From Bryobacterales bacterium (lineage in GTDB: Bacteria > Acidobacteriota > Terriglobia > Bryobacterales > Bryobacteraceae): DNA of 57,197 nt. The position numbers and the translations under genes were made by a program. The stretch spans positions 13,515 through 70,711 of the forward strand of contig PMTR01000168.1 of the NCBI GenBank assembly GCA_003167255.1, given 5' to 3'. Positions within the stretch are counted from its first letter, which is position 1. Each line of letters starts with the position of its first letter. The notes below the pieces were generated by a model. The model was not told the origin of the DNA. It did no database searches and was given only the letters and a program-made list of their open reading frames with translations. This document shows, one piece after another, positions 3,021-32,042 of this stretch.

Positions 3021-3441
3021 CGTTTCCTCCCTCGAAATAACGCCGCAAATGGTCTCTGAGGACGGCAGTGAATGCGCATTCCATGCCTCGACGGGCACCG
3101 AAGGAAGCCGAGTTTCGCCCGACCCGCTCATCTGCCGTTCGCAGATTAGCATGCTTACCACCTGTCCAATAGATCAGGTCGAGATACGGCGTTGGAGGAG
3201 ATGAGCATCCGACCAGGGTAGACTGCCGAAAACCTCAATACTGCCGCGGCGTCTTCCAGAAAGGGAATTCTTGAGCGCATGCTGGAGCCACAAACCGACC
3301 TAGGGTTGTAGCGTAGCCGTTTCTGCACAAAGCTCCTTCGCCAAGGCAATGCAATCTGACACATTGGTTTGCACCTCCCTGTCGATTTGATCGCCTGCGC
3401 CTGTCCCGCTTTCGTTCTAACGCCTTGTCGCATGGCGCCGG
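3021..3441. other. intergenic stretch
   Basis: About 420 bases between the galactanase start and the esterase stop. Only one short minus-strand frame (3155-3433) is open, and it has no recognisable motif, signal peptide or ribosome site. It presumably contains the promoter of the galactanase gene and the terminator of the esterase gene; I cannot place either with confidence. Confidence 0.5.
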
Positions 3442-5097: not shown

Positions 5098-5351
5098 CTG
5101 AGATTTCCGTTTTGGAAACCCAACAATTGAGTGTCGCCGATTGTGTATCCGGGGTCAACGCAAGTGGAGTTGGCTTCTTGGGAGTGCATCGCGCCGCGAT
5201 CGGGTCGCCGACAAGCTGGCGGATGGCGCAAGCGCTTGGGAAAGCTCTGCATGAATCGTCGACGCTGCGGAAACCGGCCCCAAACGGCGTTCGCGTCATC
5301 GCAATCGGCGGGTCCCCCCATACTGAACCCGCGGCATAGGAGGCCGCTAGT

Positions 5352-5639
5352 ATGGCGCGCAGGCAGAAGATAGCGAAACGGCCCAAGCCTAAAACGGTGC
5401 TCCGGCTTCCCGACCTGGAACAATCGAAAAACGCGGTATTGAATTCGCTCCCGGCGGCGAGTTCCCAGGAATCGTACGGTCACGCGATCGAGGAGTTCAT
5501 CGGCTGGTACTACTCTGAGCCTCGCCTTGCATTCAACCGAACGGTGGTTCTGCGATACCGCTTCTCTCTGGAGCAGAGAAACCTCGCACCCGACAGAGCT
5601 ATACCTTGGCTGCAAGCGGCGGCTGAAGAATGCGGTTAA
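5352..5639 (+). pseudogene. tyrosine recombinase, N-terminal fragment
   Basis: Residues from about VLRLPDLEQSKNAVLNSL to SLEQRNLAP match the SAM-like core-binding domain of XerC/D-type integrases, including the helix reading SYGHAIEEFIGWYYSEPRL. A good AGGAGG ribosome site precedes the ATG. The frame then runs into a short unrelated tail and stops after 95 residues, so the whole catalytic domain (R..HxxR..Y) is missing. A C-terminal integrase fragment lies 38 kb away at 43201-43390. Directly downstream is copy 1 of the dispersed start cassette. It is a decayed mobile-element gene. Confidence 0.75.
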
Positions 5640-5724
5640 CGACAAAATCGGTCTTGAGCCGGGCGAATCGTGAGCCGTACCCGCCACGCTGGCCGACTTG
5701 CGTGTCATCGATCGCGTGGAGAAC

Positions 5725-5782
5725 AAGGATGGCGGCGGGTGTATACTCAACAGGGCCCGGGAGTCCAAAATGGAAATTTCGG
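5725..5782 (+). repeat. dispersed start cassette, copy 1
   Basis: Contains AAGGATGGCGGCGGG, TATACT at 5742-5747, GGGAG at 5759-5763 and TCCAAAATGGAAATTTCGG with its ATG at 5770, 22 bases after the TATACT box. It lies about 105 bases upstream of the porin start at 5889. The frame from its ATG stays open to 6042 and overlaps the porin gene in another frame, so here the cassette more likely supplies transcription than the start codon. Confidence 0.75.
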
Positions 5783-5888
5783 CTCAACAGTCATGGAACC
5801 TGCTTCTTACCCCGATCACTTTATCGGCCAAAACCGTGAAGTTCCTCAGCGGCTATGGGCGCGGTGCTGTTCGGTCAATAGGGGGGCC

Positions 5889-7247
5889 ATGCAGTGGAGC
5901 CGGATTTCCTCAATCGCCGCGGTCCTCACCGTCACCTTGGCGCCCGCACTCGCCGCCTCGATGCTGGCGGATGACGCGTCCTCTTCTGCCGACGGCAGCC
6001 CGCCACCGGCCTCTAAGTGGTTTGCCGACTGGTCTCCGGTAGGAAAACTGCCGGCCTGGTTGCAACTGGGCGGAGAGATTCGTGGCCGCCTCGAGAGCAC
6101 CTCCGGGACTTCACTCACTAACAACGCTCCCGACACCTACTATCTGAACCGCCTGCGCGTCCACCTCGGCATCAAGCCCACTTCCTGGCTCCGCTTCTAC
6201 GCCGAAACCCAGGACGCGCGCGTAGAGGCCTACAACCCGCCGGTCGCGCCGAGCACCATTTACAACCCGTTGGACCTGCGCCAGGCGTTTGTCGAAGTGA
6301 GCACCCACGGCCCCCTGAATTTCGATCTGCGCGCCGGGCGCCAGGAACTGCTGTTTGGCGGCCAGCGCCTGATCGGTCCGGCCGATTGGGGCATGTCACG
6401 GACCTTCGACGCCTTGGATCTCGGGGTGACTCGTGGTAACGCGAAGGTGGATCTGCTCGCCGGCTCCGTTGTTCTGATCGACCCCACGCGAATCGACCGC
6501 CACAAGCCCGGCGAGCATTTCTATGGCGCCTATGGCTCTCTGAAAAACCTCCCCGCCGGCATCAACCTGGAGCCTTACCTTCTCTTCAAGCAGACGCTGC
6601 TCATCAAGAGCGAAACCGGCGTTCTCGGAGATGCCCTGGTGGTCAGTCCCGGCGCGCGCGTATTCGGCAAAGCGCCCGGGCGTCTGGATTACGTCGCCGA
6701 GGTGGTGGTGCAGCGCGGCTCTTATTCCTCCGACCGCATCCAGGCACTGGGCCAAAGCTATGTGCTCGGCTGGACGATCACCGACAAGACGTGGAAGCCG
6801 CGCGTCAGCGCCGAGTACAGCTACGCCTCCGGCGATCCCACCACCAAAGACGGCCTGCGCGGCACCTTCGACCAGTTCTACCCCAGCAACCACAGCTATT
6901 ACGGAATGATCGACCAGTTCGGCTGGAAGAACCTCAAGAACTGGCGCGCCGGAATCGACCTCCAGATCACCAAAAGACTGAAGCTGCTGAGCGATGTCAA
7001 CGACTTCTCTCTCGCCACCGTGCAGGATTCGCTTTACAACTCCAGCGGCAGCTCCGCGGTGCTGAACCGCAATACCACCAGTTCCCACATCGGCTGGGAA
7101 ACCAACACCGTCGCGCTCTACCAGTGGTCCAAGGTCTGGAAATTCGGCGCCGGCTACGGCCACCTGTTCGCCGGCCAGTATCTGGAACAATCCAAGGTCA
7201 CCTTCGGCTACACGTATCCGTACCTGTTCTTTACCGGTAGTTTCTGA
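5889..7247 (+). CDS. alginate-export-type outer-membrane porin
   Basis: A 452-residue beta-barrel protein of the alginate-export (AlgE-like) family, expected in the outer membrane and passing an acidic glycan or other solute. The signal peptide is MQWSRISSIAAVLTVTLAPA, cut near ALAAS. Diagnostic segments are NRLRVHLGIKPTSWLRFYAE, LRQAFVEV, RAGRQELLFGGQRLIG (a strongly conserved family hairpin) and the C-terminal strand ending in TYPYLFFTGSF with a terminal Phe. The ATG at 5889 is chosen because it opens the signal peptide; upstream codons are intergenic or repeat sequence. The gene stands alone downstream of an integrase remnant and cassette copy 1, which may provide its promoter. Substrate is unknown. 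Confidence 0.85.
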   Translation: MQWSRISSIAAVLTVTLAPALAASMLADDASSSADGSPPPASKWFADWSPVGKLPAWLQLGGEIRGRLESTSGTSLTNNAPDTYYLNRLRVHLGIKPTSWLRFYAETQDARVEAYNPPVAPSTIYNPLDLRQAFVEVSTHGPLNFDLRAGRQELLFGGQRLIGPADWGMSRTFDALDLGVTRGNAKVDLLAGSVVLIDPTRIDRHKPGEHFYGAYGSLKNLPAGINLEPYLLFKQTLLIKSETGVLGDALVVSPGARVFGKAPGRLDYVAEVVVQRGSYSSDRIQALGQSYVLGWTITDKTWKPRVSAEYSYASGDPTTKDGLRGTFDQFYPSNHSYYGMIDQFGWKNLKNWRAGIDLQITKRLKLLSDVNDFSLATVQDSLYNSSGSSAVLNRNTTSSHIGWETNTVALYQWSKVWKFGAGYGHLFAGQYLEQSKVTFGYTYPYLFFTGSF

Positions 7248-8509: not shown

Positions 8510-9550
8510 CTACTTTCGCTCTCCGCCACGGCTCGCAGACAGCTTTTTCGCGAGATCCAGGGTGACGTCGACGATCATATCTTCCTGACCACCGACCATT
8601 CGCCGCCGCCCAAGTTCCACCAGGATGTCTCTTGTGTCCACGCCGTACCGGGCGGATGCAGACTCCGCGTGGCGCAGAAAGCTCGAGTACACGCCAGCAT
8701 ACCCCAGCGAAAGGGTTTCGCGATCCACTCTCACCGGCCGATCCTGGATGGGCCGGATCAGGTCCTCCGCTGCGTCCATCAACCTGAACAAATTGCAGCC
8801 ATGTTCGAGTCCGAGGCGGTTCAGCACCGCAATCAGCACCTCCAGCGGAGCGTTTCCGGCTCCGGCGCCCATTCCGGCAAGCGATCCATCGACGCGCGTC
8901 GCACCGTTTTCGATCGCGACAATCGTGTTGGCAATACCCAGACCCAGGTTGTGATGTGCGTGCATGCCTTTCTGCGTTGCCGGGTCGAGCACCTCATTAA
9001 AGGCGCGGAATCGCTCCGCCACTTCGTGCATCAGCAAAGCACCCGCGGAATCGACGACGTAAACGCAATGAGCGCCGTAGGATTCCATCAGTTTCGCCTG
9101 GCGGGCCAGTTCCGCCGGGGGCGTCATGTGAGACATCATCAGGAACGTGGCCACATCCATGTCCAAGGCGCGGGCGTGCTCGATGTGCTGTTTCGCAATG
9201 TCGGCCTCGGTGGAATGGGTTGCTATGCGCACGCTGCGCGCTCCTGCCTGGTACGCGCTATGAAGGTCCTCAACCGTTCCTATTCCGGGTATCAGCAGGG
9301 CGGTCACTTTCGCGCGTTTAACGTTTTCGGCGACTGCTGCAATCCACTCGAAGTCCGTGTGAGCGCCGAAACCGTAATTGAAGCTCGAACCCGCGATGCC
9401 GTCGCCGTGGCTGATCTCGATGGCGTCGACACCCGCCTCATCGAGCGCTTTGGCGATTTGAACCACCTGGCTAATCGAGTACTGATGCCGTATCGCATGC
9501 ATCCCATCACGAAGGGTAACGTCCTGGATGTAGAGGCGGGACCCGCTCAT
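8510..9550 (-). CDS. mhpE: 4-hydroxy-2-oxovalerate aldolase
   Basis: Class II pyruvate aldolase (DmpG/BphI/MhpE family) that splits 4-hydroxy-2-oxovalerate into pyruvate and acetaldehyde, the penultimate step of aromatic meta-cleavage pathways. At 346 residues it has full family length. The N-terminal motif [14 protein letters not shown] carries the metal-binding Asp and catalytic Arg; [16 protein letters not shown] carries the metal-binding histidines; [17 protein letters not shown] is the conserved barrel strand. Its ATGA start overlaps the stop of the acetaldehyde dehydrogenase gene by four bases, so the two are translationally coupled. The family channels acetaldehyde directly to that partner. 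No ring-cleavage dioxygenase or hydratase is visible nearby, so the upstream pathway is unknown. Confidence 0.92.
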
Positions 9551-10500
9551 TGCGTCTTTCCTCCGTTCGCTTCGGCGAGCCGTTCGCCCGTGCGCAATGC
9601 AGCCGAGGTCATGATGTCCAGGTTGCCTGCGTACTTGGGAAGATAATGTCCGGCGCCCTCGATCTCAAGATAGATGCTTGTTTTGAGCCCGTGGAACGTA
9701 CCCATACCTGGAATCGCGACGGGACGATCCCCTCCGATCCGGTCAAATTGCACGCGCTGCTTCAGACGGTAACCCGGCACGTAGCAACGGACATCGGCGG
9801 CCATGCTCTCGACCGAGTGCTCGATCTCATCGGTGTCGGCATCCTCAGTCAGGCAAAACACCGTATTGCGCATGATGAGGGGAGGATCGGCGGGGTTCAG
9901 AACGATAATGGCTTTCCCACGGGCCGCGCCGCCCACCTTCTCGACCGCCCTGGCGGTGGTTTGCGTGAACTCATCGATGTTCGCGCGCGTGCCGGGTCCG
10001 GCCGATTTGCTAGCGATGCTGGCGACGATCTCGCCGTAGAGGACCTTGGCCACGCGGTTCACGGCCGCGACCATGGGTATGGTCGCCTGGCCCCCGCAAC
10101 TGACCATATTTAAGTTAGGCGCCCCCAAGTGCTCTGACATGTTGGCCACCGGCACGACATATGGACCGATGGCCGCGGGAGTTAAATCAATGAGTTGCTT
10201 GCCGTAAGGGCGCAGGAAGGCTTCGTGCTTATGATGCGCCTTGGCCGACGTGGCGTCAAATACGATGGATATTTCGGCGAAGTCCCGCGCCTTCACCAGA
10301 CCATCCATGCCCTCGGCCGTCGCCGGCACGCCCATCCGGCGAGCTCGCGCCAGACCATCGGATTCGGGGTCGATACCGACGAAGGCGGCCACTTCCAAAA
10401 CCTTGGAGGTTCGGAGGATTTTGATCATCAAGTCGGTGCCGATATTTCCCGTGCCAATAATCGCAACCTTGACCATAGGATTTGCCCGTTGATCTATCAT
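9547..10500 (-). CDS. mhpF: acetaldehyde dehydrogenase (acylating)
   Basis: Converts acetaldehyde, NAD+ and CoA to acetyl-CoA (DmpF/BphJ/MhpF family) and pairs physically with the aldolase encoded just downstream. Full length at 317 residues: Rossmann motif [11 protein letters not shown] at about 14-24, catalytic Cys135 in SCGGQAT, and the conserved [16 protein letters not shown]. The ATG at 10500 has a weak AGAAG upstream; the ATG at 10476 (MVKVAIIG) is an equally plausible start and would leave the palindrome at 10490-10500 outside the coding region. The gene is transcribed divergently from the transporter operon. Confidence 0.92.
10490..10500. promoter_or_regulatory. candidate GntR operator (TGATCTATCAT)
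   Basis: TGAT-CT-ATCA inverted repeat at the beginning of the dehydrogenase gene. Similar 11-mers occur at 15514-15524, 15718-15728 and 21638-21648, all before genes near the GntR regulator. Binding is inference. Confidence 0.35.
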
Positions 10501-10564: not shown

Positions 10565-11920
10565 TTGGAAGATGACACGTCTCGAAGCCGCTTGGAATCA
10601 ATTGTTTCAGCCCAAGGCGGCGCTGGCGAGTGGGCTTCCACCATCGGTTCGGAGCCACCGGTCGGCGATCGGGCCACGCACGTCAGGTACTACGTCTTGG
10701 CCCTGAGTTTCCTGATGGCCTTCATGATGTATATGGAGCGCGGCGCGATAGGCGTAGCCGCCCCGGCGATCATGCGGGAATTCCAGATCAGTAAGATCCG
10801 AATGGGTTGGAGCGTTTCCGCGTTCAACTGGTCCTATGCTCTGTTTCAGGTGCCAGGTGGGTGGATGGCAGACCGGTTTGGGCCTCGGATCGTGCTGGCG
10901 GGCGCCATGGCATGGTGGTCGTTGTTCACCGCCGCAACGGGATTCTCCGCCGGTGCGATTTCTTTGGGAATCACCCGTTTTTTGTTTGGGATGGGCGAAG
11001 CGGCGGGGTTTCCCGCTGGTTCTCGCGCACTGGTACCGTGGCTGCCGGTGCGGCGGCGGGCCTTCGGGCAGGGTTTTCAGCACTCAGGATCCCGTTTGGG
11101 GGCGGCGGCCGCGCCATTATTAGTAGTGTACCTGCTGAGGATCGCAGGCTGGAGATCGGTTTTTTGGATATTCGGCGCGGCAGGTATTCTTTGGGCACTG
11201 GCTTGGTATCTTTATTATCGCAACGTGCCCCAGGAGCACGCCGGCACCAACCGCCTTGAACTGGAGTTGTTAGCAGCCAATCGCTCGAAGACACAGCCTA
11301 AACGGGCGGTGCCTTGGCGGCACATTCTCCGTACTCGTGACCTGTGGTATCTGAGCGCGGCCTATTTCTGCTACGGGTGGGTTGTCTGGCTGTATCTGGC
11401 GTGGTTCCCGACGTATCTGCGGGAAGCCCGGCACTTCACCGAGCTGAAATCCGGGCTTGCCAGTCTCCCGTTGCTGGCCGCAACCCTGACCAACGTGGGC
11501 GGGGGTTTGTTGTCCGATAGACTGGTGTCCAAATGGAATAACCTGCGTCGTGGCCGTCTCGCGGTTTCGCTTTTCGGGTTCGTGATCGCCGGGCTCGCGC
11601 TTGTTCCAGGAGTGCTGACGAACAACGCACTCTTGGCCCTCGCGTGCCTGACCATCGCGCTCGCCGGCCTGGAACTGACCGTCGCTGTTTCGTGGGCGAT
11701 GTGCATCGATATCGGAGGGAATTTCAGCGGCTCTGTTTCATCGGTAATGAATACCTGGGGAAATCTCGGAGGAGCGATTTCGGCGGTAATGGTCGGCTAC
11801 CTGGCCACCCTTTTGGGATGGAAATCGCCGTTCATATTGGCCAGTGCTTTCTGTCTGTTTTCGGCGCTGCTGGTCAGCCGTATCGATCCCCGCCGTTCGG
11901 CGGTTGGGGAATCGCTGTAA
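10565..11920 (+). CDS. MFS transporter, anion:cation symporter family
   Basis: A 451-residue inner-membrane transporter with 12 predicted helices, of the ACS family that imports organic acids such as hexuronates, phthalate or glucarate. Signatures: helix 1 ending FMMYMERGAIGVAAP, the loop 2-3 motif GGWMADRFGPR, and helix 4 FGMGEAAGFPAGSRA with the arginine loop PVRRRAFGQG. An N-terminal soluble tail of about 40 residues precedes helix 1. The TTG start at 10565 is preceded by GGGGGATG; a start just before the first helix is possible. First gene of a four-gene run, 22 bases before the ferredoxin-like gene. It probably imports the substrate of the pathway encoded here. Confidence 0.85.
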   Translation: MEDDTSRSRLESIVSAQGGAGEWASTIGSEPPVGDRATHVRYYVLALSFLMAFMMYMERGAIGVAAPAIMREFQISKIRMGWSVSAFNWSYALFQVPGGWMADRFGPRIVLAGAMAWWSLFTAATGFSAGAISLGITRFLFGMGEAAGFPAGSRALVPWLPVRRRAFGQGFQHSGSRLGAAAAPLLVVYLLRIAGWRSVFWIFGAAGILWALAWYLYYRNVPQEHAGTNRLELELLAANRSKTQPKRAVPWRHILRTRDLWYLSAAYFCYGWVVWLYLAWFPTYLREARHFTELKSGLASLPLLAATLTNVGGGLLSDRLVSKWNNLRRGRLAVSLFGFVIAGLALVPGVLTNNALLALACLTIALAGLELTVAVSWAMCIDIGGNFSGSVSSVMNTWGNLGGAISAVMVGYLATLLGWKSPFILASAFCLFSALLVSRIDPRRSAVGESL

Positions 11921-11942
11921 GAGGAGGAGGAGGAGTCGAACC

Positions 11943-12785
11943 GTGAAAATCAACCAAGATAAGTGTGTCGCCTGCGGGAACTGCACTTACGTGTGCCCTA
12001 TGGGCGCGATTTACATCGACCCGGTCGTCAAGCGGGCCACCGTCAACCTGCACGAATGTGTCGAATGTTATGCCTGTTTCAACGGCTTAAGTCAGGAGCA
12101 CCTCAACCCGACGCTGATTCGAACGGTCCGCCGGATCTTCCAGATGCTGCGCCTGCGGTTCGAGCCCGAACCCGACGTCTGTCCGACGGCGGCGTTCGAG
12201 CCGGAGGAACTGACGTGGCCGCGCGTCGTGCGCCGGGCTTTCTCAGATCCCCGGGTGCCGCACGAATCAACGGGTGTGGAAGGCCGCGGGACCGAGGAGG
12301 TCAAGACCAACGACATCAGTGGCCGCGTGAAGGTGGGGGAGGTTGGTTTTACCATCGAGTTCGGCCGTCCCGGCGTCGGCGTATGGATGCGGGAAATCCA
12401 GGAAATGTGCTGGGAGTTGGCCAAGGCCGGTGTGAGTTTCGAGAAGAAAAATCCGATCACCTCGCTCATGTCGGATGTGGCGACGGGGACACTCCGCGAA
12501 GACATTCTCAACGAGAAAGTGATGTCGGCGATTGCTGAAGTCAAGGTTCCGGTCGAACGCACAGAAGAGATTATCCTGCTGGTGCGGGAAGTGGAGAAGC
12601 GGCTGGATACGGTGGTTGCGCTCGGCGTCGGGACACGGTGCGATGCGGATGGGGAGGAACGGGTTGTGGCGCCGATTCTGGAGCGTCTCGGATATAAGCT
12701 GGAGCGCGCCAAGACCAACACCGGACTCGGGAGAATCACGAACGCGGCGCCGGAGACAGTTAAACTGGAGGTACTCTCGCGATGA
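11943..12785 (+). CDS. two-cluster ferredoxin-like protein with unknown C-terminal domain
   Basis: A 280-residue protein. Residues 1-80 form a bacterial 2[4Fe-4S] ferredoxin domain: Cys8, Cys11, Cys14 and Cys18 for one cluster, and Cys39, Cys42, Cys45 plus the distant Cys80-Pro for the other, with an unusual insertion of about 34 residues before the last ligand. The remaining 200 residues are soluble, mixed alpha/beta, with no family I can name. The GTG start at 11943 follows an exceptionally strong run of GGAGGAGGAGGAG. It overlaps the next gene by four bases (ATGA), so the products are probably made together. The role may be electron transfer to a reductase acting on the imported compound; this is inference. 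Confidence 0.75.
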   Translation: MKINQDKCVACGNCTYVCPMGAIYIDPVVKRATVNLHECVECYACFNGLSQEHLNPTLIRTVRRIFQMLRLRFEPEPDVCPTAAFEPEELTWPRVVRRAFSDPRVPHESTGVEGRGTEEVKTNDISGRVKVGEVGFTIEFGRPGVGVWMREIQEMCWELAKAGVSFEKKNPITSLMSDVATGTLREDILNEKVMSAIAEVKVPVERTEEIILLVREVEKRLDTVVALGVGTRCDADGEERVVAPILERLGYKLERAKTNTGLGRITNAAPETVKLEVLSR

Positions 12786-13459
12786 CTAACACCCTACACC
12801 GTTTTGGAGATGCTGAGAGCTTTCGAGACGACTACGTCGTGATTGCCATCAGCAGCAAAGGGCGGAATGATGAAAATGCGGTTCCCAGGCTGCGCCGGTT
12901 CCTGGAAATCGCCCGCCGGTTCAACCCAGTGAATCTGGGCGATGGCCGGCACGGCGGCGCGCTCCGGCCTACTCAGTCCATCAATCCGCTTTCACACTGG
13001 AGGCGGAATATGACACCTGACTTCGACGCCGTAATTGCCGGTCTGGACGTGGCGACTACGGCCGCGGCGGTCTTCGACAATCGCGTCGCAGCGGAAGATT
13101 TCCTGAAGGAGGTCCGGGAAGCCGACCTCGGATTGAGCGTCAATATTTCCACGTCCATTGACGGCGCTGAGCAATGCTGCCACGCGGCGGGGCTTTGCCG
13201 CCACAGCGTTGGATACTCGCTTGGCTTCGAGGGGAAGACCGGCCACCTCCCCAACGAAGATGTGTTAATGCTGTCCACCATGTGCGGCCACGGGATGGTG
13301 AGTTCGTCTTTGGCCAAGAAAATGATCGACTGGGTTAAAGAAGGACGCCGGACGCCCGGGCAGGCCGTCACCTATCTCACCCGTTTTTGCTCCTGTGGCG
13401 TGTTCAATCCCTCACGGGCCTGCCGCGTTCTAGAAGAAGCGAGGACGAGGACCAAATGA
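12782..13459 (+). CDS. Cys/His-rich protein of unknown function
   Basis: I do not recognise this 225-residue protein. It has no signal peptide or membrane segment. The C-terminal half carries many potential metal ligands: CCHAAGLCRHS (Cys132, Cys133, His134, Cys139, His141), CGHG (Cys168, His170) and CSCG plus SRAC (Cys203, Cys205, Cys214). It is coupled by four-base overlaps to both the ferredoxin-like gene before it and the amidohydrolase gene after it, so a joint redox or metal-dependent role with the ferredoxin-like protein is likely. The spacing of the cysteines suggests a bound Fe-S cluster or another metal. Function is open. Confidence 0.7.
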   Translation: MTNTLHRFGDAESFRDDYVVIAISSKGRNDENAVPRLRRFLEIARRFNPVNLGDGRHGGALRPTQSINPLSHWRRNMTPDFDAVIAGLDVATTAAAVFDNRVAAEDFLKEVREADLGLSVNISTSIDGAEQCCHAAGLCRHSVGYSLGFEGKTGHLPNEDVLMLSTMCGHGMVSSSLAKKMIDWVKEGRRTPGQAVTYLTRFCSCGVFNPSRACRVLEEARTRTK

Positions 13460-14769
13460 AACGCCTTCTCCTGGGCCTCCTGCTGTGTTTGCCCGCCATG
13501 CCTCAAGGCATGGTTTTCAAGGGCTTTACGCTGATCGACGGGCGCGGGGGCGCTCCTGTATCCGATGCCGCGATGATCGTGGATAGCGGCCGGATCACGT
13601 GGGTAGGACCCGCCTCGCAACTCAAGGTCCCGGCTGGCGCGAGCGTCAATGACGTGTTCGGCAAGTACGTGATGCCGGGTATCATCAACCTTCACGGCCA
13701 TGTCAGCGTTGCTTCGGGGCTCACCCAGGATGTGAAGCGGTTTTATACGCGGGAAAATGTCGAAAAGAGCCTTCATCTCTATGCCAGCTATGGTGTAACT
13801 TCCGTCGTTTCCATGGGGACCGACCAGCCGCTGGTCTATCAAATCCGCGAGGAGCAACGCCGCGACCGCCCCTCGGTTGCCCGTATCTTTACCGCAGGTC
13901 GCGGCTTTACCGGCAAGGCCGGATACCCCAGTACCGCGCCCGGAATGGCAGGCGTGCCGTACGAAGTGGCAACCTCTGAACAAGCCTCCGCTGACGTGGA
14001 GGAACTGGCCTCGCACGCCCCGGATCTGGTCAAGATCTGGGTGGACGATCATCTGGGCAAAGACCCAAAGATCCCGATAGAGGTATCCACCACAATTATT
14101 CAGGCAGCCCACAAACATGGCCTGAAAGTGGTTGCTCACGTTTTTTATTTGCAGGACGCCAAGCAACTGGTGGCCGCCGGCATTGACGGACTTGCCCATA
14201 GTGTCCGCGACAAGCCCGTAGACGATGAGTTGATTCGGCTGATGAAGCAGCACGGCACATGGCAAATGGCAGCCACGCTCTCGCGCGAGGCGTCCATGTT
14301 CGTGTACGCCAAGCCCGCGCCTTTTCTCACGGATCCGTTCTTCACTCGCGGAGTTTCTCCCGAGGTGATCGCCACCCTGCAGAGCGCGGAGTATCAGAAA
14401 AGAATTGCCGCGGACCCGGATTTGCCCCGGTACCCCGCGTTTCTTGAGACGGCTAAGCAGAATCTGAAGCGCTTGGCCAACGCAGGCATCCGATACGGCC
14501 TCGGTACCGATACCGGCCCTCCGGCGCGTTTTGCCGGTTATTTCGAGCACTGGGAAGCGGAGCTGATGGTGGCGGCGGGGCTGACTCCCGGGCAGGTGAT
14601 CACGGCCGCTACCAAGAGCGCCGCGGAGTTCCTGGGAGCGAAGGACCTGGGAACCGTCGAAAAAGGGAAGTGGGCCGATTTTCTTGTACTGTCGGCAAGC
14701 CCCTTAGCCGATATCAAGAATACCCGCAAAATCGAATCGGTGTACATTGCCGGCAATCGGGTCGAATGA
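13456..14769 (+). CDS. exported metal-dependent amidohydrolase
   Basis: A 437-residue member of the amidohydrolase superfamily (imidazolonepropionase/prolidase-like branch). Signal peptide MKRLLLGLLLCLPAMPQG. The metal-binding HxH is His80/His82 in INLHGHVS; further ligands are expected in VKIWVDDHLG (about 196), KVVAHVF and the late Asp in GLGTDTGPP. The C-terminal beta-sandwich strands end in KGKWADFLVLSASPL and VYIAGNRVE, as usual for the family. The start at 13456 overlaps the stop of the preceding gene (ATGA). Last gene of the operon; the stop is 39 bases from the convergent GntR gene. It probably opens an amide or lactam ring or hydrolyses a peptide-like bond before uptake. Confidence 0.85.
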   Translation: MKRLLLGLLLCLPAMPQGMVFKGFTLIDGRGGAPVSDAAMIVDSGRITWVGPASQLKVPAGASVNDVFGKYVMPGIINLHGHVSVASGLTQDVKRFYTRENVEKSLHLYASYGVTSVVSMGTDQPLVYQIREEQRRDRPSVARIFTAGRGFTGKAGYPSTAPGMAGVPYEVATSEQASADVEELASHAPDLVKIWVDDHLGKDPKIPIEVSTTIIQAAHKHGLKVVAHVFYLQDAKQLVAAGIDGLAHSVRDKPVDDELIRLMKQHGTWQMAATLSREASMFVYAKPAPFLTDPFFTRGVSPEVIATLQSAEYQKRIAADPDLPRYPAFLETAKQNLKRLANAGIRYGLGTDTGPPARFAGYFEHWEAELMVAAGLTPGQVITAATKSAAEFLGAKDLGTVEKGKWADFLVLSASPLADIKNTRKIESVYIAGNRVE

Positions 14770-14808: not shown

Positions 14809-15501
14809 TCAAGCGTCTTCCGGAGGCTGCGAATCGGCTAAGTGCGGCGTCGCGGACACCCATCGCAAGGCGAAGGCGGTGAACGTTCTTCGAACGATGG
14901 TTGAAAACTCGGGTTCTGGAACTGACCGCAGCGCGTCGATCAGAGCGCTGTGCTCGCGTCCCATCGAAGCCGTCAGGGGCGCTTCGCTCGCCAGCACCAC
15001 AAATGCGAAGAGCGGCGCCATCAATCGCTCCAGGGTTTCAGCCAGGAACGCATTTCCGGAGAGCCTCCAGCACCAGCGGTGGAATTCGAAGTCGCATGCC
15101 AGGAATTCCCGGCGGTTGCCGCGTCGCCCGGCCTCGACCAAACGATCGGCAAGAGCTTGCGCTTCCTTCAATTCCGCTTCGGTCACGCGCAATCGCGCCC
15201 ACTGCATCGCGAGAGTTTCCAGTTCGATGCGCAATTCGTAGAGCTGGCGCACTTCGGCCACCGAAAATGCCGTCACAAAGCTGCCTTTGTTGTTCACGCG
15301 CCGCACAAATCCCTCATGTTTCAGAGAGATGAGGGCTTCGCGCACAACCGGCGTCCCTACATTCATTTCGCGTGCGATCTGGCGTTCCACGATGGTGTCG
15401 CCGGGCCGAAGCTTGCCCGAGAAAAAAGCACTCTTCAAAGCGGCAATCACCCGTTCGGTCAATGAGATGGTTTCAATCTGTCCAAAACCCAAGGTTTCCA
15501 T
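14809..15501 (-). CDS. GntR-family regulator, FadR/FCD type
   Basis: A 230-residue transcription factor. The winged helix occupies about residues 8-75, with the typical recognition segment REMNVGTPVVREALISLKHEGFV. The FCD ligand domain follows, with the metal/ligand residues in LYELRIELETLAMQWA, DFEFHRWCWRLSGN and GREHSALIDAL. FCD regulators usually respond to organic acids. The start at 15501 is chosen at the first Met with the usual short lead into the wing. A TGATAAATCAT site lies just upstream of its start and again before the divergent TonB gene, suggesting self-regulation and control of the receptor. Confidence 0.87.
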   Translation of the reverse strand: METLGFGQIETISLTERVIAALKSAFFSGKLRPGDTIVERQIAREMNVGTPVVREALISLKHEGFVRRVNNKGSFVTAFSVAEVRQLYELRIELETLAMQWARLRVTEAELKEAQALADRLVEAGRRGNRREFLACDFEFHRWCWRLSGNAFLAETLERLMAPLFAFVVLASEAPLTASMGREHSALIDALRSVPEPEFSTIVRRTFTAFALRWVSATPHLADSQPPEDA

Positions 15502-15513
15502 AGTCTTTGACTC

Positions 15514-15524
15514 ATGATTTATCA
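15514..15524. promoter_or_regulatory. candidate GntR operator upstream of gntR
   Basis: ATGATTTATCA, the reverse complement of TGATAAATCAT at 15718-15728. It sits 13 bases upstream of the regulator's ATG. Confidence 0.5.
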
Positions 15525-15698: not shown

Positions 15699-15728
15699 TG
15701 ACACAAGGTCGCTTGTGTGATAAATCAT
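15699..15728 (+). promoter_or_regulatory. TonB receptor promoter with candidate operator
   Basis: TTGACA at 15699-15704 is followed at -10 distance by TGATAAATCAT (15718-15728), so a regulator bound there would compete with polymerase. The -35 itself is embedded in the palindrome CCTTGACACAAGG. It lies about 50 bases before the strong ribosome site GGGGAGAGG of the TonB gene. Confidence 0.55.
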
Positions 15729-15778: not shown

Positions 15779-18700
15779 ATGAGAATTCTGTTTGTGCTGA
15801 CCGGTTTCACTGTGGCAACTCTGTTGTTTGCCCAGAACGACCGCGGGGTCATCACGGGTACGGTTACCGATGCAGGCGGAGCCGTCGTACCCAACGCGGC
15901 TATTGCCGCAGTCAACAAGGAAAACGGCGAGCAGTTCAAAGTCGTGACGACTCCCACGGGGAATTACACGTTGACGCAAATGCCCGCCGGGATCTACGAT
16001 GTCAGCGTCGAAGTTCTGGGATTCAGTAAATTCATCCAGGTAGGCATTCGGGTATTTGTCGGGGAGACAGCGCGCGTCGATGTCACGATGAAGGTGGGCG
16101 CGGCCACCGATTCGGTCACCGTGATGGCCGACGCCGCTTTGCTCAAGACGGAAAGTGCCGAGCAGAGCTCGACCATCGCGGTTGAGACGCTGAACGATCT
16201 GCCCATGAACTTCGGGGCAGGCGGCAACAGCTCGGCCGCTGGTGTTCGCAACGCGCTGACTCTTATCACCCTCGTGCCGACCGGAGTTTTTTCCGGCTAT
16301 TCTTCCATCAATTTGAATGGGGCGCCGCAGAATTCATTCAACATCCAAATTGAGGGAATGCAGGCGAATAATAGCCGCCTGGCGATCCGCCAGGACCAGG
16401 TGCAGCCTTCCGTGGAGTCGCTTCAGGAGGTTTCAGTTCTGACCAGCAACTTCGCTCCCGAGTACGGTCAGGTGGCCGGCGGCTTTTTCAATTACGTCGT
16501 CAAGTCCGGCAGCAACCAGGTCCACGGCAGCGTGTTTGAGTACCTGGTCAATGAAGACCTCGGCGCGGGAATCCCCTTCACCAGTAGCGGCGTAGGAGGA
16601 CACTTGCTTCGCCCGCCCAACCGGAGAAACGACTTCGGCGGCAACGTCGGCGGCCCGGTGTGGATACCCAAGCTCTACAACGGCCGCAACAAGACTTTTT
16701 TCTTTTTCTCCTATGAGGAGTTCTACCAGTCGCAAGGCCTAACCGGTTTAACCAACGTCCCCACTGCTGCGATGCGAAACGGGGACTTTAGCGCAGCGCT
16801 CACCGGCAAGTCGCTCGGCAAAGACCCGACCGGCGCGAACATTGCGGAAAACACCATCTACGACCCTACCAATTTCGTGACGACGGCCAGCGGCCAGGTG
16901 GTAACGATTCCGTTCCCCCTCAATCAGGTCCCCCAGCCTCGCATGGACCTGGTTGCCTTGAAAATACAGGCGTTGATCCCGCAGCCCACGGGGGCTGGAA
17001 TCCTCAATAACTGGACTCAGAATTACACCGCGTTGACCAAGGAGTACATTCCTTCACTGAAGATCGATCAGTCCTTCAACAATCAGGGGAAGCTCTCGTT
17101 CTACTGGTCGCAATACAAAGGCCCCCACTACAACGGCCTCGACGGCCTGCCGGTCCCCATCACGCAACAACGTTTCATTCAAACGCTCACCAGCACCTAT
17201 CGGCTCAATTACGACCAGCCGCTGACTCCCACCTGGCTGGTACACCTCGGCGTTGGCTACCTGGACCACTACAATACAGACTGTGGGCTGCCCGCCGTGG
17301 AGGGTTACGACCCCGTTGCCGGCCTGGGCCTGGTGGGCGCAGTCTATGGCAAAGGCTTCCCTGCTATCAGCGGCCTGAATTCGACCAATGGTGGCGGCAT
17401 GGCCTTGGGCATGGGCTCGGTAAATTGCCAGCCCATCGAGGTATACAAGCCGACGGCTGTCGCCAACACGTCTTTGGTCCACGGCAACCATACCTTCAAG
17501 ATCGGTGGCGATTGGCGAATCGACGCCCTGACCTCGGGCACCTCCGGAGCCTACGGCAGTTACACCTTCAGTGGCGCCCAGACCGGGCTGCCCTACACCC
17601 AGGGACAGACCATCGGGGGCAGCACCGTTGGATTGCCATATGCTAGCTTTCTGCTCGGCCTGGTGAATACCGCCAGCGTCTCCAACCCCGCCCTGCCTCA
17701 GACCCGCAAGGCATCCTGGGCCGGATACTTGCAGGATAACTGGAAGGTGACGCGCAAGCTCACGCTCGATTATGGGCTTCGATATGATTTGCAGGGCGCC
17801 GGCGACGAGATCCACCATCGCGTCAGTGCTTTCTCAGCGAGCATTCCAAACCCCTCCGCCGGCGGGCTGTTGGGCGCCACCGTCTATGAGGGATCTTCCC
17901 CGGGAGCTTGCAACTGCATCTTTACTAAACCCTATCCTGACGCTTTCGGCCCGCGATTCGGCGCTGCCTATCAGATCGCGCCCAAGACGGTGTTGCGCGG
18001 CGGATTTGGCTTCACCTACGCCCAAACGGGCGGTGGGCAGGCGACCAATCAGGCCACTTTGGGCGCCGGCGGTTGGAATACACTTGCCTTTTCAAACCCA
18101 ACGTATGGTTCTCCGGCGTCGTTGCTCAAGAACGGTCTGACCTATAAGCTCAGCGATTTATTCAACAGCACGCTGAATGCCGGCGTCCGGCCCCAGCCCG
18201 GTCAAATCCAGAGCCCTTCGGCGGAAATCGACCATAACGCGGGCCGCCCGCCGCGTGTGAGCCAATGGAATGTCTCGCTGCAGCGTGAAATCACTAAGGA
18301 TCTGGTCATCGAGGCCGCCTACGTAGGCAACCGCGGCGTCTGGCTGGAGCAGGACGCTCAGGAAAATTTGAACGCGCTCACGCCGGCACGGCTGGCTACT
18401 TTTGGCCTGGACATCACGAACGCGGCCAACCGGACGCTTCTCACGTCGACAGTGGCCTCCGCGGCAGTTATAGCAGCCGGATTTAAGGCGCCATACGCAG
18501 GATTCCCGACCACCCAGACGCTGGCTCAGGCCCTCCGGCCGTACCCACAGTTCTCAACCATTTCGGTAGTGGGCGCAGCTCTGGGTAGGTCTTGGTTCGA
18601 TTCCTTGCAGATGAAACTCACCAAGCGCCTTTCCCACGGCTTGGACGTGCAGTCAAACTTCGTATGGCTGAAGAATGAGGGTAGCGCCAACAACAACGAC

Positions 18701-19336
18701 ATATCCAACCTCCCAACCCAAAAGGCGATAACCAGCAATGAGCAGCCGTTCGCCCTGGTGGTGGCGCTCAACTATCAGCTTCCAGCGGTTAGTTCCAGCC
18801 GCTTCTTGCGCGCCGCAGTCCGCGACTGGACCCTTAGCACTATCGTGAAGTACGCAACCGGCCTGCCCATTCCGACACCGGCGTCGACCAACAATCTCAG
18901 TTCTGTGTTGTTCCAAACCGCCACTGTCAACAGGGTGGCAGGCGTGCCGTTGTTCCTGCAGGACCTCAACTGCCACTGCATCGATCCCTACCAGAATCTC
19001 GTGCTGAACCCCGCCGCGTGGGCCCAGCCGGCCGCGGGGCAGTTCGGAACAGCCGCCCCTTATTACAACGACTTCCGGTATGAACGGCGTCCCAGTGAAC
19101 AGGCGTCGCTCGGCAGGATCTTCCGTATCCGGGAAAAGATGAGCTTGCAGATCCGGGCGGAGTTCTTTAACATTTTCAACCGTACGTACATGAACAATCC
19201 AGTTGCCACCAATCCCCTGGCGACAACCACCCACAATGCTGCGGGGCAACTTACCGGAGGGTTTGGCTATATCAACCCCGGAACCGTGCAGGATAATCCG
19301 AGAAATGGACAGATTGTGGCCCGATTCCGCTTCTAA
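15779..19336 (+). CDS. TonB-dependent receptor, Oar-like
   Basis: A 1185-residue outer-membrane receptor of the large Oar-like class that is greatly expanded in acidobacteria and is thought to import oligomeric substrates with TonB energy. Signal peptide about 1-18 (cut after LLFAQ). Residues about 22-105 are a carboxypeptidase-regulatory-like beta sandwich (GVITGTVTDAGGAVVPNA). The plug follows, with the region from NLNGAPQNSFNIQIEGM to APEYGQVAGG, then a 22-strand barrel ending in GQIVARFRF with a terminal Phe. The start at 15779 follows GGGGAGAGGTAAGGAC. It is divergent from the GntR gene with a shared putative operator, and a cytochrome c and an MmgE/PrpD gene follow. It probably takes up the compound degraded by the local pathway. 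Confidence 0.92.
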   Translation: MRILFVLTGFTVATLLFAQNDRGVITGTVTDAGGAVVPNAAIAAVNKENGEQFKVVTTPTGNYTLTQMPAGIYDVSVEVLGFSKFIQVGIRVFVGETARVDVTMKVGAATDSVTVMADAALLKTESAEQSSTIAVETLNDLPMNFGAGGNSSAAGVRNALTLITLVPTGVFSGYSSINLNGAPQNSFNIQIEGMQANNSRLAIRQDQVQPSVESLQEVSVLTSNFAPEYGQVAGGFFNYVVKSGSNQVHGSVFEYLVNEDLGAGIPFTSSGVGGHLLRPPNRRNDFGGNVGGPVWIPKLYNGRNKTFFFFSYEEFYQSQGLTGLTNVPTAAMRNGDFSAALTGKSLGKDPTGANIAENTIYDPTNFVTTASGQVVTIPFPLNQVPQPRMDLVALKIQALIPQPTGAGILNNWTQNYTALTKEYIPSLKIDQSFNNQGKLSFYWSQYKGPHYNGLDGLPVPITQQRFIQTLTSTYRLNYDQPLTPTWLVHLGVGYLDHYNTDCGLPAVEGYDPVAGLGLVGAVYGKGFPAISGLNSTNGGGMALGMGSVNCQPIEVYKPTAVANTSLVHGNHTFKIGGDWRIDALTSGTSGAYGSYTFSGAQTGLPYTQGQTIGGSTVGLPYASFLLGLVNTASVSNPALPQTRKASWAGYLQDNWKVTRKLTLDYGLRYDLQGAGDEIHHRVSAFSASIPNPSAGGLLGATVYEGSSPGACNCIFTKPYPDAFGPRFGAAYQIAPKTVLRGGFGFTYAQTGGGQATNQATLGAGGWNTLAFSNPTYGSPASLLKNGLTYKLSDLFNSTLNAGVRPQPGQIQSPSAEIDHNAGRPPRVSQWNVSLQREITKDLVIEAAYVGNRGVWLEQDAQENLNALTPARLATFGLDITNAANRTLLTSTVASAAVIAAGFKAPYAGFPTTQTLAQALRPYPQFSTISVVGAALGRSWFDSLQMKLTKRLSHGLDVQSNFVWLKNEGSANNNDISNLPTQKAITSNEQPFALVVALNYQLPAVSSSRFLRAAVRDWTLSTIVKYATGLPIPTPASTNNLSSVLFQTATVNRVAGVPLFLQDLNCHCIDPYQNLVLNPAAWAQPAAGQFGTAAPYYNDFRYERRPSEQASLGRIFRIREKMSLQIRAEFFNIFNRTYMNNPVATNPLATTTHNAAGQLTGGFGYINPGTVQDNPRNGQIVARFRF

Positions 19337-19424: not shown

Positions 19425-19847
19425 ATGCGGTTAAGACCTCACTATTTCATAGTTGGATCTCTTTTGGTGTTGAGCGCCTCCCTCCATGCGCAGAGCAAGC
19501 AGGTCAAGACCGAAAACATTCAACCCACTACGGCCCGGACAGGCGCCGACCTGTTCCGCGAATTCTGCGCCGTCTGCCACGGCGTGGACGCCAAAGGCAA
19601 CGGCCCGGCCGCCGATGCCCTGAAAACCAGGCCTTCCGACCTGACGCAGATCAGCCGCCGGAATGGCAGCAAATTCCCGACTGTGCGGATGCACCGGTTT
19701 GTTAGCGGCGAAGACGCGGTGGCCGCCCACGGCAGTCGCGATATGCCCACCTGGGGCAACGCGTTCAAGTCCATCAGCGCGGATGCCGCTTCCGCCGAGA
19801 TGCGCGTGAACGTCCTGGTGGAATACCTCCAGAAGATTCAAAAGTAG
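19425..19847 (+). CDS. periplasmic c-type cytochrome
   Basis: A 140-residue class I monohaem cytochrome c. Signal peptide about 1-22 (cut after SLHAQ). Haem attachment site CAVCH (Cys48, Cys51, His52) in LFREFCAVCHG, and a probable sixth ligand Met in RDMPTWG. The typical C-terminal helix VNVLVEYLQKIQK is present. It lies 88 bases after the TonB receptor gene and before the MmgE/PrpD gene, all on one strand. It likely carries electrons from a periplasmic oxidation, but no partner dehydrogenase is encoded next to it. Confidence 0.88.
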   Translation: MRLRPHYFIVGSLLVLSASLHAQSKQVKTENIQPTTARTGADLFREFCAVCHGVDAKGNGPAADALKTRPSDLTQISRRNGSKFPTVRMHRFVSGEDAVAAHGSRDMPTWGNAFKSISADAASAEMRVNVLVEYLQKIQK

Positions 19848-19958
19848 GCACCGGTTAAGGCCGTTCTTTTCCGTCCAGGGGCGGGGAGGTTGCAGGAAAC
19901 CGGGGGCAGTCAGCGGTCTGGAGACTGCGGTAAGCTGTTGCTCGAAGCATCGAAAAAA

Positions 19959-21455
19959 ATGAGATTGACACGAAGGAAGCTGGCCCAGATGGCAGCTCTG
20001 GGCGCAAACTCCGCATTCCTCGCCAAGAGCCAGGTTGCCGACTTACGGCAGAGCGCGCCGGCCGCCGATCAAGAAGGGCTAACTCGCAGAGTCGCGGAGT
20101 TCATCGTCCGGACCAAGTATGCCGATTTGCCCCAAGAAGTGCTCGACCTGGGCAAGAAATCCATCCTCGATGGCATCGGCCTGGCACTAGTGGGCTCGGT
20201 GGGAGCCATTGGACGTCTCACGCGCACATACTTGCAATCGTTGGGCCTCGCGCGCAATGAGGCGACGATCTGGGGATCCTCGATGAAGTTACCGGTACGG
20301 TTTGCCGCGTTTGCAAATGGGACCGGTATCCACGCCGACGATTACGACGACACGCAGTTGGCCGTGGCCCCGGATCGCGTCTATGGCCTGCTCACTCATC
20401 CCACCGCGCCTTGTCTTTCGGCGGCATGGGCGGTGGCCGAAGCAAAAGGGATGTCCGGGCGAGACCTGATGCTCGCCTACCATCTCGGGATGGAAGTCGA
20501 ATGCAAAATCGCCGAGGCCATTGCCCCGCGTCATTACGAAGATGGATTTCACTCCACCGGGACATGTGGCACATTCGCAGCCGCAGCCGCTGCCATGAAG
20601 CTCCATGGCGCTGACGTGCCGGCCTGCGCCCGCGCGCTGGGCATCGCCGGAAGCCAGTCCGCCGGCTTGCGCGAGAATTTCGGGACAATGACCAAGCCCT
20701 TTCACGCCGGTCGCGCCGCGGAGTCTGGCATCGTCGCAGCCGATCTGGCCACGCTGGGCTGGACCGCCAGCGAACAGATCCTCGAAGCGCCAAGTGGCTT
20801 CTTTCATGCTGCCGGCGGAAGCGGCTATGATGCCGGCGCGATCAAGCTGGCACAACCCTGGACGTTGGTTTCGCCAGGAATTTCGATCAAGCCGTTTCCC
20901 TCCGGTTCCCTGACGCATCCGGCTATGACCGTATTGCTGCGACTCATGCAAGCGAACAACATCACCGCCCAACAGGTCGCACGCCTGGACGTCGGCGCCA
21001 ACCGGAATATGCCCAGTGCGCTCATCCACCACCGGCCTAAGAACGCGCTTCAGGCAAAGTTCAGCATGGAATTCTGTATGGCGGCAATCCTGCTTTACGG
21101 CAGGGCGGGGCTGCGCGAATTCGCCGACGAAGTCGTCAGGCGGCCGGAAGTCCAGGCGATGATCGAGCGCGTCCATTTCAGCGTTCATCCCGAGGCTGAG
21201 AAGGCCGGCTACAACAAGATGACCAGCATCATCGAGATCCGGCTCGTGGACGGCAGGACCATTTCCGGCCGCGCCGATTTCGCTAAGGGGAACCCGGCAG
21301 ACCCCATGACCTACAACGAAGTCGCCGCCAAATTCGCAGACTGTGCCAGATTTGCAAGCTGGCCCAACGACAAGATCGCCGCCATTGTTGAGAACGTGCG
21401 AACGCTCGAAGAAGTCCCCGATGTTCGGACTGTGACCAGGCTTTTTATTGGTTAG
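19959..21455 (+). CDS. MmgE/PrpD family protein with Tat-like leader
   Basis: The MmgE/PrpD family contains 2-methylcitrate dehydratase, immune-responsive gene 1 (cis-aconitate decarboxylase) and iminodisuccinate epimerases. This 498-residue member starts with a twin-arginine-like leader (MRLTRRKLAQMAALGANSAF), unusual for the family, which is mostly cytoplasmic. Family segments: KKSILDGIGLALVGS, the active-site region FANGTGIHADDYDDTQ, HPTAPCLSAAWAVAEA, HSTGTCGTFAAAAAAMKLHG and NFGTMTKPFHAGRAAESG. The start at 19959 is taken because it opens the leader; an extension upstream is in frame but looks non-coding. It probably acts on a small carboxylic acid from the same pathway; the exact reaction is not predictable. 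Confidence 0.85.
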   Translation: MRLTRRKLAQMAALGANSAFLAKSQVADLRQSAPAADQEGLTRRVAEFIVRTKYADLPQEVLDLGKKSILDGIGLALVGSVGAIGRLTRTYLQSLGLARNEATIWGSSMKLPVRFAAFANGTGIHADDYDDTQLAVAPDRVYGLLTHPTAPCLSAAWAVAEAKGMSGRDLMLAYHLGMEVECKIAEAIAPRHYEDGFHSTGTCGTFAAAAAAMKLHGADVPACARALGIAGSQSAGLRENFGTMTKPFHAGRAAESGIVAADLATLGWTASEQILEAPSGFFHAAGGSGYDAGAIKLAQPWTLVSPGISIKPFPSGSLTHPAMTVLLRLMQANNITAQQVARLDVGANRNMPSALIHHRPKNALQAKFSMEFCMAAILLYGRAGLREFADEVVRRPEVQAMIERVHFSVHPEAEKAGYNKMTSIIEIRLVDGRTISGRADFAKGNPADPMTYNEVAAKFADCARFASWPNDKIAAIVENVRTLEEVPDVRTVTRLFIG

Positions 21456-31986: not shown

Positions 31987-32042
31987 GTGGCGGCTGGGTG
32001 TATACTGAACAGAAACCTGGTAGTCCAAAATGGCAGTTCCGG
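31987..32042 (+). repeat. dispersed start cassette, copy 3
   Basis: GTGGCGGCTGGG, TATACT at 32001-32006, then TAGTCCAAAATGGCAGTTCCGG with ATG at 32030 (23-base spacing). This ATG is the apparent start of the caspase-like gene, so the repeat supplies both a -10-like box and the first codons (MAVPV in place of MEIP). Confidence 0.75.

Follow-up and report, generated by a model that had tools for sequence, protein, structure and literature searches.

A conserved ferredoxin-fusion and Cys/His protein pair of no described family in Bryobacterales, and its possible place in an uptake-and-degradation regulon

The window, a stretch of 57,197 nucleotides from a Bryobacterales bacterium (Acidobacteriota; GenBank assembly GCA_003167255.1, contig PMTR01000168.1, positions 13,515 to 70,711), carries a four-gene operon for a major facilitator superfamily (MFS) transporter, a ferredoxin fusion protein (FDX), a Cys/His protein (CYS) and an amidohydrolase (AMH). 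A sequence-only reading had described four tightly coupled genes divergent from mhpE/mhpF, and open reading frames, 4-nucleotide (nt) overlaps and family matches confirm this layout, with the operon on the + strand and mhpF-mhpE on the − strand. The two middle genes, FDX and CYS, are a real unit of no described family.

10565..11920, + strand: MFS transporter (TTG start as listed; true start uncertain)
11943..12785, + strand: FDX, two-cluster [4Fe-4S] ferredoxin fusion (GTG start)
12782..13459, + strand: CYS, Cys/His protein (ATG start; 4-nt overlap with FDX)
13456..14769, + strand: AMH, secreted-looking amidohydrolase (4-nt overlap with CYS)
9547..10500, − strand: mhpF, acylating acetaldehyde dehydrogenase (TIGR03215, 462.9 bits; cut-off, 282.25)
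8510..9550, − strand: mhpE, 4-hydroxy-2-oxovalerate aldolase (TIGR03217, 575.1 bits; cut-off, 286)

Relatives of the pair were compared in two sets: named loci (L numbers), which are the best 80 of 400 relatives from one scan of the contigs of named genomes, and eight sister-family loci (CYS identity, 56 to 58%) picked from matches in a 200-genome sample of the window's order. Genes were called by a crude longest-frame method, a neighbor cluster (c4) of antisense frames over the pair was ignored, and pairing and neighbor fractions take in only contigs with room. In 73 of 75 named loci and in all eight sister-family loci, FDX is the gene immediately before CYS, in the same orientation, and the 4-nt overlap is retained in 53 of 74. 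Identity to the window is 65 to 87% in the named loci and 56 to 64% in the sister family, so the pair is not a product of chance. Conservation is greatest in the pair itself: mean identities to the window are 78.8% for FDX (73 loci), 72.6% for CYS (80 loci), 58.8% for AMH (19 loci) and 48.5% for the MFS transporter (43 loci). After these four and the antisense artifact, the next most common neighbor clusters occur in 6 loci. One of the two pairing misses, L137, has an FDX C-terminal remnant after other sequence; at L137:1-1830 this remnant continues from an unrelated regulator-like sequence, and the contig is probably chimeric. The literature searches that we made found no paper on the FDX-CYS pair, and absence is claimed for those searches only.

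CYS is present in 90 of 200 genomes sampled from the window's order and in 4 of 396 genomes of a phylum sample, and a profile search returned the same four of 392. Two of these four lie outside the order: one match is full length (72% identity) on an 11-kb contig and corresponds to L107, and the other, at the end of a contig, covers just 62 residues of the C terminus. The FDX C-terminal domain occurs in 3 of the 396 genomes, all of which also have CYS; the contig-end genome is not among them. In the Acidobacteriota samples the pair was found in one order and, beyond it, in two stray genomes only, and no relative of CYS or FDX was found in plasmids and viral contigs. The group is so named because many of the best 80 relatives are titled Bryobacterales, Bryobacteraceae or Solibacter. 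L100 is titled Acidimicrobiia, and the same contig falls in the window's family in the order sample; L107 is titled Vicinamibacterales bacterium isolate CH22 (another family) yet is nested in the window's clade. Misbinning or horizontal transfer may account for these two placements.

CYS matches no family over the cut-off in Pfam or NCBIfam (Pfam was also run on 22 CYS members). The Cys/His-rich third gene of the sequence-only reading is borne out by C168, H170, C203 and C205, which, with H6 and H141, are invariant in 88 of 88 aligned rows; H72 is conserved in 86 of 88. These ligand-like residues are arranged as C168-x-H170 and C203-x-C205 in the C-terminal half, and they resemble a metal site. 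In the AlphaFold2 model, which is good (pLDDT 83.9, pTM 0.86), the first half is alpha/beta, the second half is helical, and both residue pairs lie in interhelix loops. A sequence search of the PDB with CYS returned nothing, and a fold search gave no clear match (best Foldseek E value, 0.19), which does not make the fold new. Assignment as a phosphotransferase system IIB protein was rejected (PF02302, 13.0 versus 23.6 bits, with a match in 1 of 22 members). A CxH...CxC mini-domain resembling the CYS C terminus turns up on its own in small frames of three genomes of a single genus; stand-alone frames with the pattern CxHG...CxCG...PSRA lie at L049:9429-9605, L050:9110-9496 and L065:4098-4274, and the L050 frame adjoins NADH-dehydrogenase genes, named by eye. 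L037:11389-11538 holds a second, partial copy of the CYS C terminus about 1.1 kb downstream of the intact gene, and at L149:7800-10010 a single frame resembling cytochrome c plus sugar dehydrogenase (by eye) precedes CYS.

The ferredoxin part of FDX is recognized by Fer4_10 over residues 2 to 46 only (36.7 bits; Pfam cut-off, 25.5), and its cluster motifs are C8-x2-C11-x2-C14-x3-C18 and C39-x2-C42-x2-C45-x34-C80. The usual spacing before the last Cys-Pro in 2[4Fe-4S] ferredoxins is 3 residues; with 34 residues between C45 and C80, the long insertion that had been noted ahead of the last ligand is confirmed. All eight ferredoxin cysteines are invariant in 83 of 83 rows, as are C233 and H107. 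The C-terminal domain matches no Pfam family over the cut-off, again as first proposed, and is predicted to be an alpha/beta plait (beta-alpha-beta-beta-alpha-beta) in the only part of FDX where the AlphaFold2 model is good. Its fold matches PstA, PII, GlnK and ACT proteins at Z scores of 6 to 6.9 (best match, root mean square deviation of 2.6 over 73 residues), a level that the tool calls common. A profile comparison found no relation between FDX and CYS (0.1%). The mercury-methylation ferredoxin HgcB was considered for FDX and rejected (NF040864, 27.9 versus 99 bits, over the ferredoxin part only).

The transporter belongs to MFS_1 (PF07690, 218 bits) and scores below the cut-off for TIGR00893 (231.8 versus 395 bits); its best solved relatives are the D-galactonate transporter, sialin and vesicular glutamate transporters (6e9n, E = 4.1e-51). 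It lies directly upstream of FDX in 43 of 61 named loci and in 0 of 8 sister-family loci. AMH is an amidohydrolase (Amidohydro_1, PF01979, 82.6 bits; cut-off, 25) whose solved relatives include 8ihq (E = 1.9e-25), which we take to be ochratoxin degrading (its record states just “Amidohydrolase family protein”), and the L-arginine carboxypeptidase 3mtw (E = 2.8e-23). The family assignment in the sequence-only reading is thus upheld, and the description “exported” is based on a start that looks like a signal peptide by eye. AMH follows CYS directly in 19 of 71 loci, and an AMH-like amidohydrolase occurs anywhere in the locus in 23 of 80 named loci (in one of them, L144, it is just 40% identical and 7 kb away); in the sister family it is divergently placed in 5 of 8 loci. 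Its best near-full-length paralogue in its own genome is 26% identical, compared with 46 to 47% for sister-family AMH, so AMH looks like a true partner. On a quick tree of 83 rows, AMH presence is clustered (9 changes versus a shuffled mean of 23.4, with 0 of 500 shuffles as low), with near-copies contributing to this result. AMH is its own subfamily linked with FDX-CYS. A neighborhood search had been proposed as the check, with mostly unrelated contexts as the refuting outcome; by that standard the pair occurs mostly in contexts other than mhpE/mhpF, but these contexts are not random.

Three palindromes and the genes beyond AMH bear on regulation and function.

10490..10499, − strand: operator-like palindrome TGATAGATCA, in the mhpF/MFS gap
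15515..15524, − strand: palindrome TGATAAATCA, 14 bp upstream of the GntR ATG
15718..15727, + strand: palindrome TGATAAATCA, upstream of the TonB-receptor gene
14809..15501, − strand: GntR/FCD transcription factor (PF00392 and PF07729 over cut-off)
15779..19336, + strand: TonB-dependent receptor-like outer-membrane protein (PF25183, 535.2 bits; PF13620, 61.2 bits; PF00593, 34.1 bits)
19425..19847, + strand: small cytochrome c, between the receptor and MmgE/PrpD genes (PF13442, 33.3 bits)
19890..21455, + strand: MmgE/PrpD-family enzyme (PF03972, 200.6 bits; PF19305, 108.5 bits)

The 57 kb contain TGATARATCA exactly 3 times, against 0.06 expected and never as often in 100 shuffles, and all sites are in two divergent gaps, one in mhpF/MFS and two in GntR/receptor. 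The wider form TGATNNATCA finds the same three sites (expected, 0.50; 0 of 100 shuffles). A promoter-like TTGACG-18-TAAAAT is found at 10528-10499 before mhpF (1 versus 0.3 in shuffles), and the palindrome overlaps the last base of its −10-like hexamer. The longer mhpF start falls under both promoter and palindrome, which makes the ATG at 10476 the more likely start. In the GntR/receptor gap, a promoter scan detected no sigma-70-type site. Elsewhere, TGATNNATCA is located 24 to 78 bp upstream of FDX in L089, L090, L109, L121, L125, L127 and L147; L107, which has the complete operon, the GntR gene and two palindromes, carries it both upstream of the MFS gene and a short way upstream of a gene that looks receptor-like by eye. 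Among the 17 AMH loci that have no upstream MFS gene, 6 have it no more than 100 bp upstream (6 of all 22 AMH loci); no other palindrome of the 4+NN+4 form, out of 255, is so placed in more than 1 of the 17. The palindrome thus tends to go with AMH-type loci and not with MFS-only loci. With one mismatch and about 260 bp allowed, L104, L119, L133, L144 and L150 gain sites in a looser count that has no control and that also gives sites in L079 (208 bp upstream) and L086 (no seen AMH). A genome-wide search with an extra A in the pattern was discarded: it gave 15 sites, 2 of them here, missed the mhpF site and defined no regulon.

The GntR/FCD protein (PF00392, 55.0 versus 27 bits; PF07729, 62.9 versus 24.3 bits; scanned as 14809-15504) has orthologues beside the pair in L107 (70% identity), L147 (60%) and L150 (56%) and is the likely candidate for binding the palindromes. 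Through the shared palindrome, mhpF/mhpE may be coregulated with the operon in the window.

The aldolase link claimed by the sequence-only reading finds support locally but none as a general rule. mhpE has a single copy over the cut-off in the genome, and mhpE/mhpF are absent, within flanks of up to 10 kb, from all 88 other loci and are thus a local add-on. Locally, the genome (98.85% complete) has no match to the DmpE-type hydratase (TIGR03220, E ≤ 0.001), which leaves the usual meta-cleavage supply of 4-hydroxy-2-oxovalerate incomplete, and no extradiol ring-cleaving dioxygenase is found among the 35 window frames scanned with Pfam, as first stated; one LigB-family protein is encoded elsewhere, on contig C24 (other dioxygenase families were not searched). 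With the shared palindrome, the link is local yet better supported than by neighborhood alone. The nearest solved relatives of the MmgE/PrpD protein are IDS-epimerase and cis-aconitate decarboxylase (2hp0, E = 1.5e-58), and an alternative later start at 19959 would give it a twin-arginine-like leader (by eye). In L076 and L078, MmgE/PrpD genes 66% identical to that of the window come after AMH. L075 and L077 (the latter by clustering) have an HpcH/HpaI-family gene two genes upstream of the MFS gene, and an arylmalonate-decarboxylase-family gene (L079), a dicarboxylate symporter (L121) and a fragmentary aldehyde dehydrogenase (L150; best model, under cut-off, 2,5-dioxovalerate dehydrogenase) lie near the pair in other loci. 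These neighbors, which differ between loci, suggest metabolism of small di- or keto-acids. Farther away in the window are a GH53 glycosidase, a carboxylesterase and an alginate-export-type outer-membrane protein in close proximity (1461-7247), a protein with a DUF362 domain (29379-30965) and one with a caspase domain (Peptidase_C14; 32030-34015).

Because the two genes are nearly always paired, occur in the same genomes, are strongly conserved and encode invariant residues, FDX-CYS is most likely an iron-sulfur enzyme of two subunits; the palindromes and neighbors place it, in the window, in a predicted inducible uptake-and-degradation regulon ending in MhpE/MhpF. FDX, with two [4Fe-4S] clusters and an ACT/PII-like plait, would assemble with CYS and pass electrons to it; the 3Cys-1His site of CYS would sit in the helical half, and the adjoining alpha/beta half would hold the substrate. 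An external compound would be taken up by the TonB receptor, its amide bond cleaved by secreted AMH, and the acid product brought in by the MFS carrier and converted by FDX-CYS. A 4-hydroxy-2-oxo acid, perhaps formed with help from MmgE/PrpD, would then be split by MhpE/MhpF to pyruvate and acetyl coenzyme A (acetyl-CoA), with the GntR/FCD protein acting on the TGATARATCA palindromes as the putative control; we infer the order of these steps. As a whole, this explanation is the best available, and we give it a probability of about 0.45. The narrower proposal that FDX-CYS itself converts an amide-derived carboxylate to the 4-hydroxy-2-oxo acid or a precursor, with neither a ring-cleaving oxygenase nor DmpE hydratase involved, is doubtful. 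The cyclic or amide-bearing substrate of the sequence-only reading, which is partly supported overall, is a guess, its amide part favored solely by the family to which AMH belongs.

Several observations weigh against the enzyme-and-regulon interpretation. The FDX model is poor across the ferredoxin part (mean pLDDT, 62.7), L149, the second pairing miss, has CYS without FDX, no third gene is obligate beside the pair, and no electron donor gene was recognized near it. The palindrome statistic for the window is partly post hoc, since the motif caught the eye in the window and L107 before any test, and the left half of the palindrome doubles as a possible −10 box. Of the six palindrome-bearing AMH loci, three (L121, L125 and L127) are near-copies, and among 52 loci without a seen AMH the palindrome occurs in 1 (L089, whose contig ends after CYS). 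The nearest kin, L075 to L078, lack it at up to one mismatch, although contig ends truncate L076 and L078. In L150 the GntR orthologue is present, with no exact TGATNNATCA, just a one-mismatch site.

Other explanations account for parts of these data. mhpE/mhpF and the operon could be mere neighbors, with FDX-CYS unrelated to the aldolase and the gap shared by chance, and their absence from all 80 named and all eight sister-family loci (in flanks of up to 10 kb, often less) speaks for this. One of just three palindromes in the window nevertheless falls in the mhpF promoter region, the remaining two lie by the regulator and receptor genes, and the HpcH/HpaI gene upstream of the MFS gene in two close relatives belongs to another aldolase family; we consider coincidence unlikely, though less so than the alternatives that follow. 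A metal or cluster carrier serving the assembly or repair of a metalloenzyme encoded elsewhere would suit the stand-alone CxH...CxC mini-domains of one genus and the lack of a fixed third partner, but the pair clusters with uptake and degradation genes, AMH-type loci have the palindrome, and presence is patchy (90 of the 200 genomes of the order), all of which make this role improbable.

Only a shade less improbable is that the pair senses redox state and regulates the transporter in a PII-like manner, with no enzymatic function. The plait matches of the FDX C-terminal domain, a weak match of CYS to SbtB (Z score, 5.4) and the frequent MFS gene directly upstream are consistent with it; the Z scores, however, are at the common level, the transporter is much less conserved than the pair, and no MFS gene is directly upstream in 18 of 61 named and all eight sister-family loci. 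The least probable explanation is that the pair acts like the methanogen L-aspartate-semialdehyde sulfurtransferase, moving sulfur onto an aldehyde or keto acid. There, Cys54 of MA1821 is essential and MA1822 is a small ferredoxin protein with a NIL domain, as described in PMC12068725, a division of labor like that of FDX-CYS. CYS, in contrast, is no detectable relative of HcyBio/COG1900 (hhalign against three HcyBio proteins; probability, 1.5%), HcyBio matches 0 of 22 CYS members and NIL matches 0 of 22 FDX members, the NIL domain was found in 0 of 60 genomes searched (own genome included), and the residues that never vary in CYS are more suggestive of a metal site.

If the enzyme interpretation is right, two unannotated, very highly conserved acidobacterial families may carry out an as yet unnamed step in carbon or nitrogen turnover. 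The predicted operator provides a direct handle, as the identity of the inducer would reveal what the genes act on. Compared with known systems, FDX shares both four-cysteine motifs with the 2[4Fe-4S] bacterial ferredoxins (Fer4_10) and differs from them in its spacing before the last Cys-Pro and its long C-terminal domain of no family. That domain is like the PII/ACT-like proteins in its predicted plait but has no sequence match to them and is fused to a ferredoxin. AMH belongs to the same family as 8ihq and 3mtw across most of its length (8ihq, residues 6 to 423), at a distance. Relative to the mhp/dmp meta-cleavage route, MhpE (DmpG) and MhpF (DmpF) are present over curated cut-offs, whereas the genome lacks the DmpE hydratase and the scanned window frames lack a ring-cleaving gene. 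Although neither HcyBio/COG1900 nor NIL is detectable in FDX-CYS, a parallel in design is MA1821/MA1822 (COG1900 plus NIL-ferredoxin), where two genes likewise encode a Cys-bearing protein and a ferredoxin with a small ligand-binding-like domain.

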